From NCBI GenBank assembly GCA_022843805.1, contig JALHMY010000013.1, positions 1-64,000 on the forward strand: a DNA stretch of 64,000 bases. Direction: 5' to 3'. Source of the DNA: Fuerstiella sp. (GTDB taxonomy: Bacteria; Planctomycetota; Planctomycetia; Planctomycetales; Planctomycetaceae). Below are positions 6,958-18,240 of this stretch, in pieces. A program made the translations under genes and the position numbers. Position 1 is the first letter of the stretch. Each line of letters begins with the position of its first letter. The notes below the pieces were generated by a model that did not search any database, was not told the DNA's origin, and saw only the letters and a list, made by a program, of their open reading frames with translations.

Positions 6958-9900
6958 TTACGGAAATCTGTTTTCTGTGAACGACTTCAATTCGTCGAGC
7001 CACAGGAGGGCGTCGTCGAATCCATGCTTCTGAAGCTGTGTCAGCGTGAGGGGCCATTCGGGCAGTGATTGCAGCACAACGGGCAGATTGCGAGGATTGC
7101 TGCTGCGCAGAACTTCTCTCGCTCGTTTCAGTATTCGATGTATCAGCTGCCGGATCTCCACGCTGGAGATTGCCGCCGTACATCGTTCAATCTGGCAGCA
7201 GACTGCGTCATAGGATTCCCATGGCAGCTGATCGCCGACAATCACGTGTTCATAAAACAGAAAGTCGTCCTCCATTCGCGTTTCACGCACAAAGCCGCAC
7301 AATGCGGGATGGAGAAAATACCATGCTGACAGCGGCAGATCGGCGCCGGAGTGGCTCACCATATCGTCGGGCTGCCGAAACTTTTGAATCGACAGATCGC
7401 CATCCGACAGTTTCCAGACGACACCCAGCAGTCCTGCGAGATACAAATCCTGAAACGGATGAAAAATTTCGTTTGCCGCATCGCCGAACGAATTGACCGT
7501 TTCTTCACTGATGCCGTTGAACCGTGCACAAACACTGACGGCTTCCTGGCGGCTAAGGATATTCGCGGGCAGGCTGGCCAGAAATCGCGACCGAGTTTCC
7601 CGATTGTCCAGGCAGTCGAGAAACATTCGGTTTTCTTCAAACAGATTCGCTACGAGCCGATTCGCGCTGGCTCGCCGAACGACTTCGCAGAACTTTGTCT
7701 CGGTCAGTGAAGTTCGCTGAGCGGACAGTTCTGCGGCGATGACGACAAGATCGCGAGGGCGGCCGAAGGAGTGGCGTCGGATGAAGCGAAAACTGTCTTC
7801 CGGGACAGGACGACGTTCGTGTTTCAGCACTCGAATGCCGAGAAAGTCCTTGAAGTCACTGGTGGCCTCATAACAGGATGACAGCCGGTCAAGCAGTTCT
7901 TCCAGTTCATCGTCCGAGTACCGCAGAAAGGCGGTGGCTCCCGTCAAATTGGATTTGATATCCGACTGGTAATTCACAAACGCTTCATGGCGGATGGACG
8001 CAAAGATTTTCGCATGGCTGTTGGCACTCATCATATCCCATGCGGCTTCAATCAGTCCGGCCTGGATATTGATCCATGCGTCACGGGAAAGTCGACGAAC
8101 GGCCTGATCGACTTTGTCGATGAAGAAATACGTTGAGCTGTGGATACCTCGAAGTTTCTGGTCGAGAAATGTTTCCGTATCATCCACCAGAGCATTTGCC
8201 TGGCTGATCGAAAGATTCGTCAGTTCACGAAACACGACTGTGGGTTCAATTCGGCTGCCCTTCAGCCATCGACGGAATCGCGGAGGAAATACTGCCAGTT
8301 CATCCTCTTCATCGGCTGCAATGATACCCGGATGATTCGCCAGTGCGGAGACTCGCAGAGCCATCGTCCAGAATCGTTTTGTAGTGGAAAGGTCAGCCAG
8401 CGGTTTTTCGAAACGAGCGGACAGCGATTTCAGCTCGCTCATAAAATCCAGATAAGGACGACCCTGAGGAATAAAGCAGAGTCCCGCGGATGCGTGTTCC
8501 CGTGCGTGCAGCTGACTGAGCAGATGTCGTTTGTAAGTCAGCAACAGAGTTTTTCCCAGACCCTTTGTTGCTGACAAAAAGAATTTGCTCCTTCGATTCA
8601 GAAACTCTTCCACAATCTGATTGCGAAAGACCACCTGCTGCAGATCGTGCACATCAATCTGGCTTGCGTCAGTGGCCCAGATCTGGCCATGCAGGGATCG
8701 GAGAGGCCGATCGGGCGGGCGAACGACGATTTCTCCGGGCTGCAGTCCAACGACCGTCAGCGCCACTGCCACTCGTTCAAAGGTGTGTTCCGGCTGGTTT
8801 CGATCGGGAGCGATGATGGAAGCCGTCCCAAGCAGAGATCTCCAGACAGGATGATGGCTTTCAAATTCTTCCAGTGTCATGCCGATCAGCAGCGGCATCA
8901 TCACGATGCTGCATCGGGCAGCTTCCTGGATTTGGCGACCTGCTTCTTCGGAACGGAGTGTCTGGTGAGAGATTAGAATGATAAAGGCGCCGGATCGACG
9001 AATTGCCTCGGTGGTTTGCGTGAGGAACGAAATTCCAGGCAGTGCATCTCGCTGATAGTACCAAGTGGAAAAGCCCTGTTTTCCAAGATAGGTTGCCAGC
9101 TGGCTGGCCAGAAGCGAATCATCTCCCGAACCGCATACGTAGGCGGCAATCTGTTCCTGCAGGGGAACCGTTGACAATGTTCGCAGAAAGGCGGGTTCTG
9201 CCTGATTGCCCTGCAGCGCCATGGCAAACTCCTGACAGGTGGCGAATCGCTTCGAAGGCACCTTGTGCAGAGCCCGATGGATGGCGGCACCCACTTCTTC
9301 CGGCAGGTCTTCCCGCAGGCTGCACAGGCTGACGGGGTTTGACTCGCAATGCAGCTGAAGCAGTTGCTGCGGATCTTTGCCGTGAAAGACTTTACGCCCT
9401 GCCAGCATTTCGTAGGCCAGCAATGCCAGCGCGTACTGATCGGTTCGGCCATCGACAGCCGAACAGGAGGCCTGTTCGGGGGAGGCATACTGCGCGGTCC
9501 CGCAGAAGCCCTCGATCTTGAATTCTTCACGAAGATCACGGGCGATGCCGAAGTCCAGAATTCGAGGCTGTCCGTTGCGGGCAATGCAGATATTTTCGGG
9601 CTTCAGATCTCTGTGAATCACTCCCTGGCTGTGAGCAAAATCCAGTGAGATCGCAAGAGCTGCGATGATTCGGCGAACATCTGTCAGCGGCAGCTGATGG
9701 CATCTCTGCAGGATCTCACGCAGAGTCTGTCCGTCAACGTATTCAAAGATCGTAAACGACTTGCCCGCGTGAATGCCGAAGTCAAAAACTGTGGCAATCC
9801 CCGGGTCGTTCAGAGAAGCACCAAGGCGAGCTTCTCTGGCGAGAGCTTCCTGCAGGAGTTTTGCACTTCCCTGCCAGCGTACGGCCACAATCTTCATGGC

Positions 9901-10173
9901 GACCTGACGATTCAGCAGCTGATCATGAGCCAGCAGCACGCGGCCCATTCCTCCGCGGCCCAGGTTTGCCGTCAGCAGATAGCGCTCATGGATCGTGGCA
10001 CCAATCTGAAAATCCTGATCGACTTCAGCGTTCAGATCGTCATCGAAAAGTGCCAGCGCCTGACCATCGCTTCCAACAAAACAATAAGACCCCGCTGCCG
10101 TGGCATGTTCAGACAGCCCTGGCACCCATTGCACCAGAGTGGCGTCCGGATCGTCAGCGAAATCAGAAGACAT
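6958..10173 (-). CDS. Ser/Thr kinase - TIR - P-loop NTPase fusion protein
   Basis: This 1071-residue cytoplasmic fusion has no predicted membrane helix. Residues about 64-322 are a Hanks-type protein kinase with intact landmarks: glycine loop LGRGGMG (71-77), Lys94 in VAMK, HRDLKPEN (Asp189), DFG (207-209) and ASPEQ. Residues about 341-475 match a TIR (TIR_2-like) domain: a first strand AAYVCGSGDD, GFSTWYYQRDALPG and IILISHQTLRSEE. The position that normally carries the catalytic Glu of TIR NADases aligns with Gln414 (GRQIQEA). Residues about 505-800 are an NTPase with Walker A ATKGLGKT (535-542), a Walker-B-like TYFFIDKVDQ (681-690) and KIFASIRHEAF, which resembles a sensor segment. The C-terminal 270 residues are helical and unassigned. 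The gene starts 7 bases after the LRR lipoprotein gene. Domain calls are firm for the kinase, good for TIR and moderate for the NTPase family. A role in stress or immune signalling is inference only. Confidence 0.88.
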   Translation of the reverse strand: MSSDFADDPDATLVQWVPGLSEHATAAGSYCFVGSDGQALALFDDDLNAEVDQDFQIGATIHERYLLTANLGRGGMGRVLLAHDQLLNRQVAMKIVAVRWQGSAKLLQEALAREARLGASLNDPGIATVFDFGIHAGKSFTIFEYVDGQTLREILQRCHQLPLTDVRRIIAALAISLDFAHSQGVIHRDLKPENICIARNGQPRILDFGIARDLREEFKIEGFCGTAQYASPEQASCSAVDGRTDQYALALLAYEMLAGRKVFHGKDPQQLLQLHCESNPVSLCSLREDLPEEVGAAIHRALHKVPSKRFATCQEFAMALQGNQAEPAFLRTLSTVPLQEQIAAYVCGSGDDSLLASQLATYLGKQGFSTWYYQRDALPGISFLTQTTEAIRRSGAFIILISHQTLRSEEAGRQIQEAARCSIVMMPLLIGMTLEEFESHHPVWRSLLGTASIIAPDRNQPEHTFERVAVALTVVGLQPGEIVVRPPDRPLRSLHGQIWATDASQIDVHDLQQVVFRNQIVEEFLNRRSKFFLSATKGLGKTLLLTYKRHLLSQLHAREHASAGLCFIPQGRPYLDFMSELKSLSARFEKPLADLSTTKRFWTMALRVSALANHPGIIAADEEDELAVFPPRFRRWLKGSRIEPTVVFRELTNLSISQANALVDDTETFLDQKLRGIHSSTYFFIDKVDQAVRRLSRDAWINIQAGLIEAAWDMMSANSHAKIFASIRHEAFVNYQSDIKSNLTGATAFLRYSDDELEELLDRLSSCYEATSDFKDFLGIRVLKHERRPVPEDSFRFIRRHSFGRPRDLVVIAAELSAQRTSLTETKFCEVVRRASANRLVANLFEENRMFLDCLDNRETRSRFLASLPANILSRQEAVSVCARFNGISEETVNSFGDAANEIFHPFQDLYLAGLLGVVWKLSDGDLSIQKFRQPDDMVSHSGADLPLSAWYFLHPALCGFVRETRMEDDFLFYEHVIVGDQLPWESYDAVCCQIERCTAAISSVEIRQLIHRILKRAREVLRSSNPRNLPVVLQSLPEWPLTLTQLQKHGFDDALLWLDELKSFTENRFP

Positions 10174-10180
10174 TCAGAAA

Positions 10181-11215
10181 TTACTCCGGATTCTTCGGAG
10201 CCGGGTCATTGCCGTTTTCCTGTGCCGGGGGCTGCTCCTTCGAGGCGGCAGCGTCCCAGACACCCAGATCGTAGCGTTTCCAGAAATCGGCCGCATCAAT
10301 CATGGTATCCATGGAGGGCTGGATCTGGGTCAGTGTCTGCATATTACGAATAACGTCGATTCCTTTTTGAATCCTGTCGGGGCTGAGTGTCAGGCGTTCC
10401 AGCTTAAGATCCTTCAGCGGGGTGAGATCTGACACATCGGTTCCGGCAATATTCAGACGTCGAAGAGTTGTCATCGCTGCCAGTGGATCTAGACTGGAGA
10501 CCTTTGTGTCCTGCAGATCAAGGCTCTCCAGTTTCATCTGCGACAGAGGGGTCAGGTCCTGGATTTTCGTTTTGGGAATCCACAGGGTTTTCAAAGGCAT
10601 GCCGACAAACTGCCGAAGATCCTCCACAGGAGTACCCATCAGGTTAAGCTGCTTCAGGGGCATTCCCTGCAGAGGCGACAGATCGGTGACTTTTGTATTC
10701 TGGAGTTTCAGTCCTTCGAGAGCGATTCCTTTCAGCACGCTGATGTCCGAAACCGGAGTATCTTCCAGGATCAGTTCCCTCAGCGGCATGCCCTCCAGCG
10801 GAGACAGGTCAGTGACGGCCGTCATCCCGAGATCAAGATACTGCAGAGGAGTACCTTTCAGAGCTTCGATTGACTTCACGCCTGACTGAAACAGTTCGGC
10901 CCGGACGATGTCGTTTCCGGAATATTCAAACTTCGCCTGTTCGTTGGCTTTCAGTTTCTGACGAAGTTCGCCGGGAGTCTGGCGATAGGTTGTTGACGTA
11001 TCTGCTGCCCGAACGGGAGGTGGCGTTTCAGAGGACATTGAACTGTCAGTGGAGGTTTCGCAGCCGGTGCTGGTCACGACGAGCAGCAACAGGAAGACGA
11101 AGTCCGACAGCCGTTTCTTTTGTGCTGCGGCGGGTCGCAGCAGGGTTGTCTGTTGTGTGATTTGGAATTGTGGTCCGGCGGAAAAATTCATGCAGTCCAT
11201 AGATTTGCGTTTCAT
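10181..11215 (-). CDS. Leucine-rich-repeat lipoprotein
   Basis: This 344-residue protein has an N-terminal hydrophobic segment (residues about 37-50) ending in STGC (Cys52), which fits a lipoprotein signal loosely because the -3 residue is Ser rather than Leu. Residues about 105-300 are eight or nine leucine-rich repeats of about 22 residues, with the pattern LxLxxTxVxDLSPLxGMPL. The C-terminus is a polar tail rich in Pro, Glu and Asn. Such repeats usually bind other proteins. The gene begins 2 bases after the murD stop codon and ends 7 bases before the kinase-TIR gene, so the three are almost certainly one transcript. It may be the envelope-facing partner of the kinase, but nothing in the sequence proves it. 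Confidence 0.82.
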   Translation of the reverse strand: MKRKSMDCMNFSAGPQFQITQQTTLLRPAAAQKKRLSDFVFLLLLVVTSTGCETSTDSSMSSETPPPVRAADTSTTYRQTPGELRQKLKANEQAKFEYSGNDIVRAELFQSGVKSIEALKGTPLQYLDLGMTAVTDLSPLEGMPLRELILEDTPVSDISVLKGIALEGLKLQNTKVTDLSPLQGMPLKQLNLMGTPVEDLRQFVGMPLKTLWIPKTKIQDLTPLSQMKLESLDLQDTKVSSLDPLAAMTTLRRLNIAGTDVSDLTPLKDLKLERLTLSPDRIQKGIDVIRNMQTLTQIQPSMDTMIDAADFWKRYDLGVWDAAASKEQPPAQENGNDPAPKNPE

Positions 11216-11217
11216 GA

Positions 11218-12753
11218 TCAGGCAGGATTCCAGTCCTGAGCCATCTTTAAAAACAGATCACCACGTTCCCGGTAGTCTCGAAACCAGCCATAGCTGGCAC
11301 AGCCCGGCGACAGCAGCACGATATCGCCGGGCTGCGTAAGTGCAACCGCCTGAGAAAACGCATCAGAAAAATCCTGTCCAATTCTGATTGTCGGTCGATA
11401 CTGCTGACCGGGATTCTCCAGCAGTGTACGCAGCTGTTCGGCCGTTTGTCCCATCAGAATAACGGCGGCTGCCCGCTGAGCGATTTCTTCAGCAAAGGCG
11501 GTCAGATCCTGTCCCTTGTCGTAGCCACCAGCAAGTAAAACAATACGGCCCGGAAAGACTCGAAGAGCCTGAATGGCCGATTCCGGTGTTGTCGCGATAG
11601 AATCGTTGTAAAAACGGCGACCAAATCGCTCGGCGACCTGCTGCAACCGGTGGGGCAGGGGAGTGAATGTGCGAATTACGTCAGAGAAGCGGGCCGGATC
11701 AGCACCGGCGAGCCATGCTGCACAGGACGCAGCGGCGATGTTGAGTCGGTTATGGCGGCCGGGAAGCTGAGCTGGCTGATCAAAACGGAGTGCTTCTTCA
11801 AAGCACCCTCCTTCGTCCGTAAACTGTCGACCGGGAAGAGATAATCGGGCTGGCGGATGAATGTTTGGCAGGCCCGGTCCTGCAGGAGTTACCGGCAGCG
11901 ATTTGGATCGCAGAGACAAAATGCCGTCTTCAAGAAAGGCGCCGTCGCTGCCACTGTCGACGACGTCGAAGCGATAAACGCGTCCCCGTGTTTTCCAGTC
12001 GGTACGCATATCCCGGTCATTGTCGTCATCGCCAAATTCCGGGAGTATTGCTGCGTCGGACGGCAGCTGAGCATTCAGAATTCCCTGCTTGGCAAGACGA
12101 TAAGCGTCCAGAGTCTCATGCCAGTCGAGATGATTGGGAGTAAAGTTGGTGATTACAGCAATGTCAGGTCGAAATCGGCGCTGGCGCAGAATTTCCAGCT
12201 GAAAGCTGCTGAGTTCCAGCACAACTCGATCGTCGGCTGAAATATTTGTCAGCTGATCGAGCAGGCTAATGCCAATATTCCCTCCCAGCCATGATCGGCG
12301 AGATTCGTTTTGCCATGCATGAGTCAGCAAATGATGAATGAGTGCCGTGGTTGTCGATTTTCCGTTGCTGCCCGTGACGGCAATCAGTGGAGCCCTGTTG
12401 AAACGGCAAAAGATCTCTATTTCGGTCGTTACTTCGATGCCGCGGGACTTTGCTTCAGTGATTCCGCCTGAGCTGGGTTTGACGGCCGGATTTACAATCA
12501 GAAGATCGCATTCGCTGAACACTTCCGGGGGATGGTGACCGAATACCCAGCGGTCGATATGGACATCGGAAAGCTGTTCCACGGAATCGTGAAGCTCTTC
12601 GGCGGGTTTGGTATCGGTGACTGTTACACGAGCGCCATTCCGGGCAAGAAACCGGGCGGCAGCGACTCCACCGCCGAATTTGCCCAGTCCCATCACAGTG
12701 ACGCGGCGACCTGTGCAATACTCGGCGATGTCTGACAAAAGCTCGTCTGACAT
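11218..12753 (-). CDS. murD: UDP-N-acetylmuramoylalanine--D-glutamate ligase
   Basis: MurD adds D-glutamate to UDP-MurNAc-L-Ala in the cytoplasmic steps of peptidoglycan synthesis. From the chosen ATG at 12753 the protein is 511 residues, somewhat longer than the usual 440-460. An upstream in-frame ATG at 12849 would add 32 residues that do not look like MurD. Domain 1 has the Rossmann-like VTVMGLGKFGGGVAAARFL. The central ATPase domain has the Mur ligase P-loop VTGSNGKSTTTALI and LELSSFQLE. The C-terminal domain has FYNDSIATTPESAIQAL and LLSPGCASYGWFRDYRERG. The extra length lies in an insert with low similarity after about residue 235. It heads an operon with the LRR and kinase-TIR genes; the other mur genes are not in the window. 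Confidence 0.93.
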   Translation of the reverse strand: MSDELLSDIAEYCTGRRVTVMGLGKFGGGVAAARFLARNGARVTVTDTKPAEELHDSVEQLSDVHIDRWVFGHHPPEVFSECDLLIVNPAVKPSSGGITEAKSRGIEVTTEIEIFCRFNRAPLIAVTGSNGKSTTTALIHHLLTHAWQNESRRSWLGGNIGISLLDQLTNISADDRVVLELSSFQLEILRQRRFRPDIAVITNFTPNHLDWHETLDAYRLAKQGILNAQLPSDAAILPEFGDDDNDRDMRTDWKTRGRVYRFDVVDSGSDGAFLEDGILSLRSKSLPVTPAGPGLPNIHPPARLSLPGRQFTDEGGCFEEALRFDQPAQLPGRHNRLNIAAASCAAWLAGADPARFSDVIRTFTPLPHRLQQVAERFGRRFYNDSIATTPESAIQALRVFPGRIVLLAGGYDKGQDLTAFAEEIAQRAAAVILMGQTAEQLRTLLENPGQQYRPTIRIGQDFSDAFSQAVALTQPGDIVLLSPGCASYGWFRDYRERGDLFLKMAQDWNPA

Positions 12754-13134
12754 GAAAGACGGGTCATTCGGTATGAATAGCGATGGATTGAGCTGGACAA
12801 GGGCCAAACGGAGTCTAGCAGAATACTGCTCTGTTTTGAACAGGAGCAAACGGAGGAAACAGAGATGAACACGACCTCAGCGCATTCCCCGTGATTCCTC
12901 CGTTCCCTCTGTGAGCTCCTGTTCAAATCAAACAGAATGATCAACGGTATCAGGCACCGAAGTTCCATATTCGGCGGGTTTTGTTTTGAAGGTGAGTGCG
13001 TCGAAGCCCATTCTTACGAAAACACAGATTAAATCAGATTGTAAACTTCCGGAAAATTCTGTGAAATGGCGGCCGGTTTCTGAGTCTATTGGTGCCCGGA
13101 GAATACATGGGCAATTGCATCGGGGATCTGCAGC
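12754..13134. other. Divergent intergenic region, murD operon / ECF sigma
   Basis: About 380 bases hold the putative promoters of the murD operon (minus) and of the ECF sigma factor (plus). Much of it is the inverted repeat at 12835-12927, listed separately. I found no convincing sigma-70 -35/-10 pair. Confidence 0.5.
12835..12927. repeat. Inverted repeat, 13-bp arms with nested 9-bp arms
   Basis: TTTGAACAGGAGC (12835-12847) is perfectly inverted as GCTCCTGTTCAAA (12915-12927). Inside them ACGGAGGAA (12850-12858) is inverted as TTCCTCCGT (12895-12903). The element lies between murD and the divergent ECF sigma gene. It could be a small non-autonomous element or a regulatory structure. Confidence 0.8.
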
Positions 13135-13758
13135 GTGGCAAACGGCTCTGCGAGTGCTTTTCAGTCGCCCACGCCGGAGGAGCGTTCCTTCAGGGAGCTG
13201 ATCAGTGCTGCGCGGGCTGGAAGTGCGGACGCTGCCAGTGTTCTGATTGAGCAGTGTCGGGACTACCTGCTGCTGATTGCAGGAGAAGATTTGGGGCAGC
13301 ATTTGAATGCCAAGCTTGGCGCTTCAGATGTTGTTCAGCAAACCCTGGTGTCAGCCTGGCAGAACTTTCAGCAGTTTCGAGGTGAGACACAGGAGGAATT
13401 GGCTGGCTGGTTAAGACAGATTCTAAAAAATGATTTGCTGAATGCTCATCGATATTTTCAGACCACACAGCGACGTGATGCTCGCCGCGAACATCGACTC
13501 AACGATTCCCGGCTGATTCAGCCGGATTTGGTGGATCAGGGGCATACGCCAGGGACTGACGCACTGATCCACGAGCAGGAGATGCAGCTGGAGCGAGCGA
13601 TGGCGCAGTTGCCTGAAAACTATCGACAGGTGATTCGGCTGAGAAACTGGCAGGAGATGCCGTTTTCTGATATTGGCAGGCAGCTTGGGATGAGTTCTGA
13701 AGCGGCCAGAAAAATCTGGTCTCGAGCCATTGAGCGTCTGGCAGACTTAATCAGGTAA
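13135..13758 (+). CDS. ECF-type RNA polymerase sigma factor (planctomycete kinase-linked class)
   Basis: This 207-residue sigma-70-family protein has only regions 2 and 4. Region 2 is seen in SDVVQQTLVSAWQNFQQF and WLRQILKNDLLNAHRYF. Region 4 is LPENYRQVIRLRNWQEM followed by the helix-turn-helix FSDIGRQLGMSSEAARKIW. The start is GTG with a GGGGA-containing leader, since no in-frame ATG is nearby. It ends 24 bases before a membrane Ser/Thr kinase gene. In planctomycetes several ECF groups are linked to such kinases instead of a classical anti-sigma factor, and no anti-sigma gene is visible here. The likely role is transcriptional response controlled by the adjacent kinase (inference). Confidence 0.92.
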   Translation: MANGSASAFQSPTPEERSFRELISAARAGSADAASVLIEQCRDYLLLIAGEDLGQHLNAKLGASDVVQQTLVSAWQNFQQFRGETQEELAGWLRQILKNDLLNAHRYFQTTQRRDARREHRLNDSRLIQPDLVDQGHTPGTDALIHEQEMQLERAMAQLPENYRQVIRLRNWQEMPFSDIGRQLGMSSEAARKIWSRAIERLADLIR

Positions 13759-13782
13759 GATGTTTTTTGGGCATGATGACGA

Positions 13783-16700
13783 GTGAGCAGTACGGCGGAA
13801 CGATCGGCCAGTCAGGATGATGAAGGCGGTGCTGAAGATTCCCGAGCGAGAGAGCTTGAGCAGCTGCATGAGCAGATCCTTGCGAAAAGCCGTGACAGCG
13901 CCTCCCTGCCTGGTCTTTCGGCAAATATTGATGAACAGGATTCCGTCGGTCCAGCCCGTCGAGTCCTGGAAATGATGGAGAACGTCCGGCGTCGGAATCG
14001 TCTGCCTCCTCATTCGCTGCGGAGTGGACTGCCGCCGGAAACATTTGCGGGGAGCTCGATTGCTGAGCCGGACCATGCGCCGGACCATGAGCCAGCTAAG
14101 GCGGGCGCTCCGGGTGCTGCCCGCACATCAGATGGCCTGAGCGACATCAGCACATCGGAGCGTATGTTCCACGACTGCATTTCCGCTGATGTAATCTCCG
14201 GACCAATGCCTGTGCGGCTGCCCTCACAGGACAGTGCATCGCATTTTGATGAGGACGAGAATCGGAGGGATAGTCGGCCGATTCCGCGTCGAATCGGCCG
14301 GTTTGAAATTCGTCGCGTGCTGGGTACAGGGGGCTGCGGCATCGTATTTCTGGCCGACGATCCTCAGCTGAATCGTTCAGTCGCGCTTAAGGTGCCGCGT
14401 CCTGATACTCTGGCGACGGCCGATGGGCAGGAACGCTTTCTGCGAGAAGCGAAGGCGGCTGCGATTCTGAGTCATCCGAACATTGTTACTGTGTATGAGG
14501 CGGGTCGTGCCGGGCCCGTGCTGTACATAGCTTCGGAATTTGTGAATGGACCATCTCTTGCACAGTGGCTTCAGCAGCAGACGGTGGGAGTGGACTTTAA
14601 AGGGGCTGCCAGTCTTGTTCGAAATCTGGCGATAGCGGTTGAGCATGCTCACAGTCGCAGTGTGATTCATCGGGATCTTAAGCCGGGAAACGTACTGATC
14701 GATGTTCAGGGGTCTCAGCGAACTGTTGCTGAACTAACCGTTGATGACCTTGCCGGGCATGTCAAAGTCAGTGACTTTGGGATGGCTCGTCTTTTGACGG
14801 AGGATTCCCGGTCGACATCCCCGGGCGTTGTGATTGGCACTCCAAGTTACATGGCACCGGAGCAGGTTGGGACTGGCGTTACGATGGCTGGCCCTGCAGC
14901 CGATGTCTATGGACTGGGAGCTGTACTCTATGAACTGCTCACGGGGTTGCCTCCGTTTCGTGCATCGACGATTGTGGAGACGCTCGATCAGGTGCGACAT
15001 CAGGAGCCCGTTCCGCCTCGAAGAATTCGACCGGCGGTGCCACATGATCTGGAGACAATCTGTCTGAAGTGTCTCTGGAAGGAGCCCTCGCGGCGATATG
15101 TTTCGGCAGGCGCTTTGGCAGACGATCTGGAACGATTCCTCAGTGATCGGCCGATACTGGCACGAACCACCAGTACTCTGGAACGAGTCTGGCGGTGGTG
15201 TCGGCGTCATCCGATGGTTTCTCTGCTGGCAGTGATGTTGCTCATTGTCAGCATTGGAGGCGCAGCCGGGGTCACCTGGAAATGGCGGGAAGCAAGTTTG
15301 CAGCGGGAGCGGGCGGAAAGCAGTGCCCTGCGATTTCGGATGGAACGTGACGTTGCCCGACAGGAGAGGGAACGTGCGGAAGCCGAACGTATCCGGGCAG
15401 AAGACAATAAGCGGCTGGCGCAGGAGAACGAACGACGAAACGAGCGAACTCATTATCTGCATCGCATCGGTTCGGCCATGGGAGAATGGCAGTCGAACCG
15501 GGTCGGCAGAACCAGTCAGCTGCTGGACGAGTGTCCCGAACATCTGAGAGACTGGGAGTGGAGTTATCTGCGATCACTCTGCGACTACGGAATTCAGACC
15601 CTTGAGGGGCACAAGGACTCCATCTGGTGCCTGGCTGTGAGTCCTGATGGAAAAACCATTGCGTCCGGTACAGGAAACTGGGGTCAGGATCAGCCGGGTG
15701 AAGTAATTCTCTGGGACGCACAGACCAATTCCTTAATTGCCAGGATGTTCGGGCATTCATCCGGAATCATGGGTATGGACTTTAGTCCGGATTCACGTTC
15801 ACTGGCGACGGCAGGAGTTCGCTGGGAAAGCCGTGAACCGGGAGGCGTCCGAATCTGCAGTATTCAGGGTGACGATGTTCTGACACTGGCACCTCCCGGA
15901 AACGATGCGGCCGACGTTGAGTACAGCCCCGACGGAACTCAGCTGGTGACCGCCCATATGAACGGTACGCTGCTCTTCAGAGATGCGGCTACCGGCAGGC
16001 TGCTGCACACGGTCGTGGCACACGAGAGTCATGTCTTTAATGTGGAGTTCAGCCCGGATGGCAGATTTCTGGTCACTGTCAGCCGTGATGGAACCGTTCG
16101 TCTGTGGGATGCAGGAACCAGAGAACAGGTGGCTATGTGTGGAAACTATGGAGATGTGCGAGAGGTTGAGTTCAGCCCGGATGGCAACACGATCGCCTTT
16201 TCAATATACGGTTCCGCCATCTGCCTGTGGCATCTGGATGCACTGCATGACAATCCCGTTCCGAACCACTATCCAATCTCCACGATCCGTTCCATTGCCT
16301 ACGGTCCGGATGGGCGACGAATCGCAATTGCCAGTAATGATGGTCTTGTCCTGCTGATTGATGCTCGGACCGGTCGCGAGCTTAAGAGGCTGCGAGTCCA
16401 TGACGGAGTTGTCCGCGCGATCTGTTTTACTCCGGACGGTCGCGAGCTTCTGACAGCCGGGACTGATCGCCTGGTTCGACGTATCCGTGTCAGTACCGAC
16501 TGGGATATCGAAACAATTGCTCCGGGGCCACCAAATTCTTTCGGCTGGATTTACAGATTTGCGTTTACCCCTGACGGCACGCATTTGTTGCTTCCCGGTG
16601 GACTGAATCGCGGATCATACGGAGTCGGCAAAAAGAATCTGTATCTGTGGAATATGGCCCAACAGAAGATCGTTCAGACGTTTGAAGGTCACACTGGCTG

Positions 16701-18240
16701 GCTCAATGACGTGGCGGTCAGCAGGGACGGTAACACGTTTGCCACAGCCAGCGATGACCAGACAATTCGCCTGTGGCGATCCGATGAAAAGGATTCTGTC
16801 CAGGTATTGAAGGGACATAAGGCCAGTGTTTTGAGCGTGGCATTCCATCCGCTTTCCGACTTAATCGTCAGTGGAAGTGCGGATGGCACAGCCCGCGTCC
16901 AGAACTGGAAGAGTGGCCAGCCGCTCGCCGTGTTCAGCAAACATCAGGGCGCAGTTCGGGGAACTGTTTTCCTGCCGCACAGCAGCAGTTGTGTATCCGG
17001 AGGTGATGACGGAAGTCTGAGAATCTGGGATTTCACCACAGGTGAAGAGCTGAAAGTGCTGACAGGCCATACCGGGCCAGTCACTTCCGTTGCGGTCAGC
17101 AGCGATGGACTGTTGCTGGCCAGTTCTTCGCAGGATATGACAATCAGGCTCTGGGAGGTCGGATCAGGCCGTCTTCTGCATACTCTGACGGGACATGGTG
17201 GTATCGTTACGCAGGTTGCCTTCAGTCGAAATGATCGCCGCGTGGTGTCATGCAGTCAGGACTATACCGTTCGAATCTGGGATGTTATTTCGGGTGATCA
17301 GGCACTGACATTGAACCACAGTGGCAGCTTGCTGGCAGTCGGGTTCAATCCATCCGGAACCGATCTTCTGGCATCGTATGGCAGCCGACTGCATCGCTGG
17401 ACCATCCATCCGGATTATGAAACTGAAGAGGCGGAACAGGCATCCCGGACTGCCACGGCCCAGTGGCACGCAACGGAATCTCTGCGCCTGTTCAGCAGGC
17501 AAAGGTTTACTTCCGCTCTCTTCCATTATCACCGCCTGATTGAATTCCAGCCATCGATACCACAGTTCAGAATGGCTCGTGCCAATGCGTATGCCGAGCT
17601 GGGTGAGTATTCGTCTGCGGAAGCCGATTATATTGTTGCCCGGGGACTAAAGTCCGACGAGTTACTTTATGCGCAGAACGCCTGTTATGCGGCTGTTGCT
17701 CAACTGGGCGGAGGTCGGATGAATGAGTATCGTCAGAGTTGTCGACAGCTTCTGACAGAGATGCAGCGTCTGGTTCCTGCAGAGTCGCTTCATAATCTGA
17801 TCCGGGCCTGTATTTTAGTGCCTGATGCTGTAGAAGATTTTCCGGCGATCGTCATCGCCGGACGGAAGATGATGGAATCGACATCTGCAGAGAAACGAGC
17901 CATGCACCTGGGTACGCTGGGTGCCGCTCTTTGTCGAAACAGTGAGCTTTATGAGGCGCGAGCCGTGTTGCTGCAGGCCATTGACCTGAATGGTAAAGGC
18001 GGACCGATTGAAGACCGGCTGTTCCTGGCAATCGTTGAGTTTCGTCTGGGAAACAGGGGTGCGTCTGAGGAATGGTTTAAGCAGGCCTCTCGGGCAATTG
18101 AGGAGTCGCTGAATCCTGACCAGGACACGAACACCCCGCGGCCTCACTGGACCGACCGCTTTATTCGTAACCTTTTGTTATCCGAGGCTGAGTCACTGTT
18201 GCGAAAGCCGGATGCCGTTCCGGCGGCGGAAGTGCGGTGA
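13783..18240 (+). CDS. Membrane Ser/Thr kinase with WD40 propellers and TPR-like tail
   Basis: This is a 1485-residue single-pass membrane kinase. The N-terminal 170 residues are polar and probably disordered. The kinase domain (about 175-450) has LGTGGCGIVFLA, VALKVP, HRDLKPGNVL (about 294), SDFG (about 329) and YMAPEQ. One transmembrane helix (about 479-499) follows, then a charged coiled coil (about 500-555). WD40 repeats fill about 604-1210, with many copies of SPDGxxLxTxxxDxTxRLWD-type motifs, enough for two propellers. The last 250 residues contain TPR-like helices (for example FHYHRLIEFQPS). The start is GTG at 13783; nearby ATGs are out of frame. It is co-directional with and 24 bases from the ECF sigma gene, so the pair probably forms a signal-transduction unit. 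The ligand sensed by the WD40 part is unknown. Confidence 0.94.
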   Translation: MSSTAERSASQDDEGGAEDSRARELEQLHEQILAKSRDSASLPGLSANIDEQDSVGPARRVLEMMENVRRRNRLPPHSLRSGLPPETFAGSSIAEPDHAPDHEPAKAGAPGAARTSDGLSDISTSERMFHDCISADVISGPMPVRLPSQDSASHFDEDENRRDSRPIPRRIGRFEIRRVLGTGGCGIVFLADDPQLNRSVALKVPRPDTLATADGQERFLREAKAAAILSHPNIVTVYEAGRAGPVLYIASEFVNGPSLAQWLQQQTVGVDFKGAASLVRNLAIAVEHAHSRSVIHRDLKPGNVLIDVQGSQRTVAELTVDDLAGHVKVSDFGMARLLTEDSRSTSPGVVIGTPSYMAPEQVGTGVTMAGPAADVYGLGAVLYELLTGLPPFRASTIVETLDQVRHQEPVPPRRIRPAVPHDLETICLKCLWKEPSRRYVSAGALADDLERFLSDRPILARTTSTLERVWRWCRRHPMVSLLAVMLLIVSIGGAAGVTWKWREASLQRERAESSALRFRMERDVARQERERAEAERIRAEDNKRLAQENERRNERTHYLHRIGSAMGEWQSNRVGRTSQLLDECPEHLRDWEWSYLRSLCDYGIQTLEGHKDSIWCLAVSPDGKTIASGTGNWGQDQPGEVILWDAQTNSLIARMFGHSSGIMGMDFSPDSRSLATAGVRWESREPGGVRICSIQGDDVLTLAPPGNDAADVEYSPDGTQLVTAHMNGTLLFRDAATGRLLHTVVAHESHVFNVEFSPDGRFLVTVSRDGTVRLWDAGTREQVAMCGNYGDVREVEFSPDGNTIAFSIYGSAICLWHLDALHDNPVPNHYPISTIRSIAYGPDGRRIAIASNDGLVLLIDARTGRELKRLRVHDGVVRAICFTPDGRELLTAGTDRLVRRIRVSTDWDIETIAPGPPNSFGWIYRFAFTPDGTHLLLPGGLNRGSYGVGKKNLYLWNMAQQKIVQTFEGHTGWLNDVAVSRDGNTFATASDDQTIRLWRSDEKDSVQVLKGHKASVLSVAFHPLSDLIVSGSADGTARVQNWKSGQPLAVFSKHQGAVRGTVFLPHSSSCVSGGDDGSLRIWDFTTGEELKVLTGHTGPVTSVAVSSDGLLLASSSQDMTIRLWEVGSGRLLHTLTGHGGIVTQVAFSRNDRRVVSCSQDYTVRIWDVISGDQALTLNHSGSLLAVGFNPSGTDLLASYGSRLHRWTIHPDYETEEAEQASRTATAQWHATESLRLFSRQRFTSALFHYHRLIEFQPSIPQFRMARANAYAELGEYSSAEADYIVARGLKSDELLYAQNACYAAVAQLGGGRMNEYRQSCRQLLTEMQRLVPAESLHNLIRACILVPDAVEDFPAIVIAGRKMMESTSAEKRAMHLGTLGAALCRNSELYEARAVLLQAIDLNGKGGPIEDRLFLAIVEFRLGNRGASEEWFKQASRAIEESLNPDQDTNTPRPHWTDRFIRNLLLSEAESLLRKPDAVPAAEVR

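Follow-up and report, generated by a model that had tools for sequence, protein, structure and literature searches.

Multicellular bacteria have predicted NTPase conflict systems in which TIR domains, kinases and STAND NTPases can replace one another as modules and which, in the parts of the two sources available to us, are mostly multi-gene, ternary systems (Kaur 2020, PMC7159879; PMC8195603). The protein described here, encoded in a 64,000-nucleotide stretch of Fuerstiella sp. DNA (the window), draws on the same modules but, unlike most of these systems, carries them on a single chain. Those parts of the two sources make no mention of its ATPase family or its three-domain order, and a literature search for kinase-TIR names returned nothing relevant. 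For the TIR NADase SARM1, the accessible part of one report gives E642A as the mutant with the largest activity loss among those tested (PMC8266388); E642Q has served in structure work as a mutant of the catalytic site, and no activity value was found in the accessible part of that paper (PMC7688312).

Domain organisation of the fusion protein

The gene (6958..10173, minus strand, ATG start) encodes a protein of 1071 residues in which a Hanks-type Ser/Thr kinase, a TIR domain and an AAA+/STAND-like ATPase follow one another. TIR domains serve immune proteins either for assembly or for the breakdown of NAD, and the ATPase resembles the ATP-driven switches of cell-death proteins in animals and plants. 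A first-pass annotation had proposed a kinase, a TIR domain and a P-loop NTPase in one polypeptide, and this is borne out by Pfam, by AlphaFold models and by homologues. The three-domain fusion is real and unusual; because at least 18 homologues have the same domain order, with up to 68% identity, it is not a chance joining. These homologues are scattered and nearly all belong to Planctomycetota.

An N-terminal extension (residues 1-57; 10003..10173, minus strand like all features of the gene given below) contains the motif YC/F-x-x-DG, which the alignment shows to be shared by the family. The kinase domain occupies residues 58-322 (9208..10002), with a Pfam Pkinase match at residues 68-314 (E 3.4e-43). 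Lys94, Asp189 and Asp207, the residues that define a Hanks-type kinase, are all present and nearly invariant in the family. The ATP-binding Lys94 within VAMK (9892..9894) is found in every kinase-bearing row, and the family alignment places the catalytic-loop HRD at residues 187-189 (9607..9615) and DFG at residues 207-209 (9547..9555). The motifs of both the kinase and the ATPase are kept in nearly all aligned rows.

The ATPase was modelled from a 23-row alignment (pLDDT 87.8, pTM 0.86) and spans residues 495-970 (7264..8691), including a winged-helix-like part. It has a nearly invariant Walker A motif, KGLGKT (residues 537-542; 8548..8565), and the family alignment also places Walker B, FFIDKVDQ (683-690; 8104..8127), sensor 1, IFASIRHE, with its conserved Arg (723-730; 7984..8007), and a GxP-type motif, FGRPRD (803-808; 7750..7767). 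The nearest solved fold is Cdc6 (Z 11.5, 241 residues, rmsd 5.0), with Cdc6/Orc1 proteins at Z 11.5 and 10.5, followed by plant RPP1 (Z 9.8), Dark (9.4) and CED-4 (9.2). Searched against PDB sequences, the ATPase profile had no match. The model places the NTPase among AAA+ proteins of the ORC/Cdc6-STAND type, a moderate fold match that does not separate ORC/Cdc6 from STAND. Cdc6, RPP1, Dark and CED-4 all use nucleotide to switch or to assemble. An AAA+ core is also held in common with the Sll1717 P-loop ATPase family (NCBIfam NF047389), which matches residues 509-958 with E 1.8e-17. Since the score (about 63.6-65.8 bits) lies below the cut-off of 75, the window ATPase is a relative outside the curated Sll1717 subfamily; all 23 of the 23 aligned family ATPases match NF047389 at E 0.01 or better.

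No LRR, WD40 or TPR sensor repeats were found by Pfam after residue 480, so that the protein lacks this mark of an NLR receptor. Its last part, residues 971-1071 (6961..7263), is helical in the secondary structure of the model, and these roughly 100 residues have no Pfam match and no recognisable repeats.

The TIR domain and Gln414

The TIR domain covers residues 340-478 (8740..9156), and Pfam TIR_2 matches residues 346-432 (E 1.2e-10, 42.4 bits against a cut-off of 28). A model built from a 19-row alignment (pLDDT 90.0, pTM 0.85) confirmed the TIR fold assigned at first pass. In a PDB fold search the nearest solved structure was human SARM1 (Z 18.0, rmsd 1.9 Å, 128 residues aligned), with SPARTA TIRs and AbTir also near. 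The window domain therefore has its fold in common with SARM1 and other TIR NADases. It differs from them in having Gln at the position of the catalytic Glu and an RD-x-x-PG BB loop (RDALPG, residues 375-380), a form known from TLR adaptors and present in nearly all TIR rows of the family. Among profile matches in the PDB, TIR-STING came first, and the adaptor MAL/TIRAP was near the top. The Trp found in many NADase TIRs four residues before the catalytic Glu is absent family-wide.

Gln414 (codon CAA, 8932..8934) falls in the Glu column when the domain is aligned with the other TIRs of its own genome, most of which have Glu there. Its distance from Ser402, 12 residues, is the usual one, and the next conserved Pro follows after 13 residues, as in SARM1. 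The HMM alignment to 7uxr has a four-residue gap, which had cast doubt on the placement of Gln414; the own-genome TIRs and the Ser402 spacing settled the matter. Gln414 thus aligns with the catalytic Glu, as the first-pass annotation had it, and, judged by sequence alignment and overall fold, corresponds to SARM1 E642.

That annotation had also spoken of an altered catalytic site, which holds for the window copy and one clade and fails as a family trait. The helix after strand D, in which TIR NADases carry their catalytic Glu, lacks it in the window protein and contains it in 12 of the 19 aligned family TIRs (12 of the 18 other than the window's own); of the remainder, six have Gln and one Asp. 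Two further members (G119 and G334), read apart from the 19-row alignment, likewise carry Glu. Every Gln codon is either CAA or CAG and differs by a single base from GAA or GAG. In the ATPase tree all Gln members fall within a single clade of eight (support 100/99), which includes two Glu members, among them the window's sister, and the starred branches require the Gln label to have changed at least twice. Glu may have been lost repeatedly, or lost once and then regained by reversal. This sister, L060, has an ATPase that is 82% identical and carries Glu. Three species of one genus, which have the gene at a common locus, all retain Gln. The altered residue is real, yet it is a trait of one clade and not of the whole family. 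Four proteins of the Gln-containing clade (L059, L063, L065 and L073) have HQD or HHD in place of the kinase HRD and are non-RD kinases.

Between two Gln species the TIR domain is 94% identical, more than the kinase or the ATPase, with dN 0.03, dS 0.57 and dN/dS of about 0.05. The mean ratio of TIR to ATPase distance was 1.72 for Gln pairs, 1.66 for mixed pairs and 1.55 for Glu pairs, a small difference between non-independent pairs that stands without a statistical test. Since 1.72 is close to 1.55, there is no clear relaxation of the Gln-bearing TIR, which is under strong purifying selection and has no sign of decay. This selection, the RD-x-x-PG BB loop and the place of MAL/TIRAP among the profile matches favour a scaffold role. 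The earlier suggestion of a scaffold rather than an enzyme gains from the first two of these, short of proof, and a scaffold TIR in Gln members may be compatible with an enzymatic one in Glu members.

Alternatively, TIR domains across the whole family could be NADase effectors for which the kinase acts as sensor or regulator, and Gln414 would have weakened or abolished the activity of the window copy, leaving it dormant or regulatory. The predominance of Glu in the family, its presence in both members that have TIR and ATPase without a kinase, and the NADase nearest folds speak for this. We nevertheless regard it as doubtful, given that Gln occurs in six members, is retained across three species under purifying selection, and that the Trp is missing even where Glu is present.

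Distribution, variants and gene neighbourhood

Among 170 genomes from the window's bacterial family, a TIR-ATPase query found relatives in 13, with a long match in eleven, and the ATPase profile found them in 3 of 392 genomes sampled from the phylum. A scan of one genome per species yielded 22 loci, 21 planctomycete and one from Sorangium; it used two peptide patterns, so that distant members were missed. The family kinases form one clade (SH-aLRT 99) that also holds two kinases with other C-termini. Two members, L076 and L129 (G334), are TIR-ATPase proteins without a kinase, and both have Glu. The Sorangium cellulosum protein (L079) is a kinase-ATPase without TIR, whose kinase lies outside the family clade, albeit on a long branch; a class III nucleotidyl cyclase at its C-terminus was considered from a likeness seen by eye and dropped, as Pfam gave nothing. 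On the Butyrivibrio plasmid pCY186 (L160:2977-5193), a family ATPase carries a C-terminal SEFIR domain. The ATPase is therefore the part retained when the partner domains (TIR alone, SEFIR or another kinase) change.

A 192-aa stretch (L052, G000:C97:12230-12808), of which the last ~154 residues are 68% identical to the C-terminus of the G145 member (L058), is an apparent remnant of a second copy and lies near three separate kinase genes. In the same genome, seven TIR_2 domains occur within 30 kb (G000:C14, about 80-110 kb), and at least two of the proteins in this cluster also have, by eye, an NTPase-like region.

Apart from the common locus in three species of one genus, neighbouring genes change from locus to locus, and the window does not share them even with its closest relative. 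An M1 peptidase, an amine oxidase, LexA, a sulfatase and a hybrid histidine kinase are among these neighbours, which form neither one operon nor a defence island, and no partner gene was conserved across the loci compared. In the window, the fusion gene is directly preceded on its strand by MurD and a gene for an LRR lipoprotein-like product (10181-12849), with only 2 and 7 bases between the genes, and the three are possibly co-transcribed. The LRR protein (10181-11215) was considered as a sensor partner and rejected, being lipoprotein-like (LVVTSTGC near its N-terminus), secreted-looking and not found at the other loci tested. MurD was rejected as well: two relatives also have it in the vicinity, but at a distance of about 10 kb, without tight linkage. 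Positions 13135-18240 of the window encode an ECF sigma factor, followed by a kinase of 1485 aa that carries a long array of WD40 repeats.

Among the PADLOC matches listed for 70 neighbours there were only generic kinases and RtcR-like regulators, and the 25 of 36 matches listed for the window protein itself all fall within residues 53-341, its kinase part. The lack of defence genes among the matches listed for the neighbours would suit an ordinary planctomycete signalling kinase that gained a TIR-ATPase module by domain shuffling and serves growth or stress regulation and not defence. So would the genome's roughly 90 kinase matches and the 307 different architectures reported for planctomycete and outgroup kinases (PMC11032199). 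The patchy presence of the family and the turnover of its neighbours argue against such a role, which we consider unlikely.

An anti-phage or abortive-infection system like TIR-STAND proteins, with the ATPase sensing a phage product, is very unlikely on the same neighbourhood evidence, and no relatives were found in viral contigs or phages. Its domain kinds do match those of predicted conflict systems in the parts of the sources available (PMC7159879, PMC8195603), its distribution is scattered, and the SEFIR-bearing ATPase relative is plasmid-borne; the two relatives found on plasmids are relatives of the ATPase only. For the anti-phage context that the first-pass annotation brought up, the evidence tips neither way: no defence neighbours among the matches listed and no viral carriers were found, but no conserved housekeeping operon either. 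An immune role of the fusion protein would be plausible.

A tentative switch model and its known counterparts

We tentatively read the window protein as a single-protein switch in which ATPase-driven assembly clusters TIR domains and kinases, with the kinase as the output, the likeliest of the readings considered, though held with some reserve. The C-terminal AAA+ ATPase would bind ATP and oligomerise on a trigger, and its assembly would gather the TIR domains through TIR-TIR contacts, as their fold and BB loop suggest. In members with Glu the assembled TIR domains may cleave NAD, whereas with Gln414 the TIR domain of the window protein most likely does not. Here assembly would bring the kinases together for mutual phosphorylation and then phosphorylation of targets, as in animal MyD88-IRAK or RIP complexes. 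The switch model draws on what was observed: the domain content, the folds, the conserved motifs of kinase and ATPase, Gln in place of the catalytic Glu, purifying selection on the Gln-bearing TIR and the retention of the ATPase. It is weakened by the retention of Glu in the majority of members, a sign that enzymatic activity is what usually matters, and by the possibility that Gln arose recently in the window's lineage. The lack of recognisable sensor repeats and of a conserved partner gene also weighs against it.

A more specific form of the switch model, which we find rather doubtful, would make the protein a bacterial equivalent, in one molecule, of the Toll receptor-adaptor-kinase cascade: the ATPase switch would assemble a non-enzymatic TIR scaffold that activates the kinase of the same chain, and TIR activity would have been lost repeatedly by Glu-to-Gln change after the kinase became the output. 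If the TIR domain is a kinase scaffold, TIR-driven kinase activation would occur in one bacterial polypeptide, a principle familiar until now from the innate immunity of animals. Within one clade, the natural series of Glu and Gln makes scaffold and enzyme testable between sister proteins that are about 68% identical.

The same order of kinase, TIR and NTPase is found in a kinase-TIR-nSTAND1-FGE-sulfatase protein from another member of the window's bacterial family (L127:3381-7823, G035), which keeps Glu in its TIR domain and of which L126 holds a partial second copy. It differs from the window protein in belonging to another kinase clade and another NTPase family and is an independent assembly; since its kinase and NTPase are unrelated to those of the window protein, the combination arose at least twice. 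In plant TIR-NLRs such as RPP1, a TIR domain is likewise joined to a STAND-type ATPase, and the ATPase folds of RPP1, CED-4 and Apaf-1/Dark are similar to that of the window protein. Unlike these proteins, it has no C-terminal LRR or WD40 part, adds an N-terminal kinase and has Gln where the catalytic Glu would be. Its architecture represents a new form of a known scheme, that of effector domains on STAND-like ATPases.
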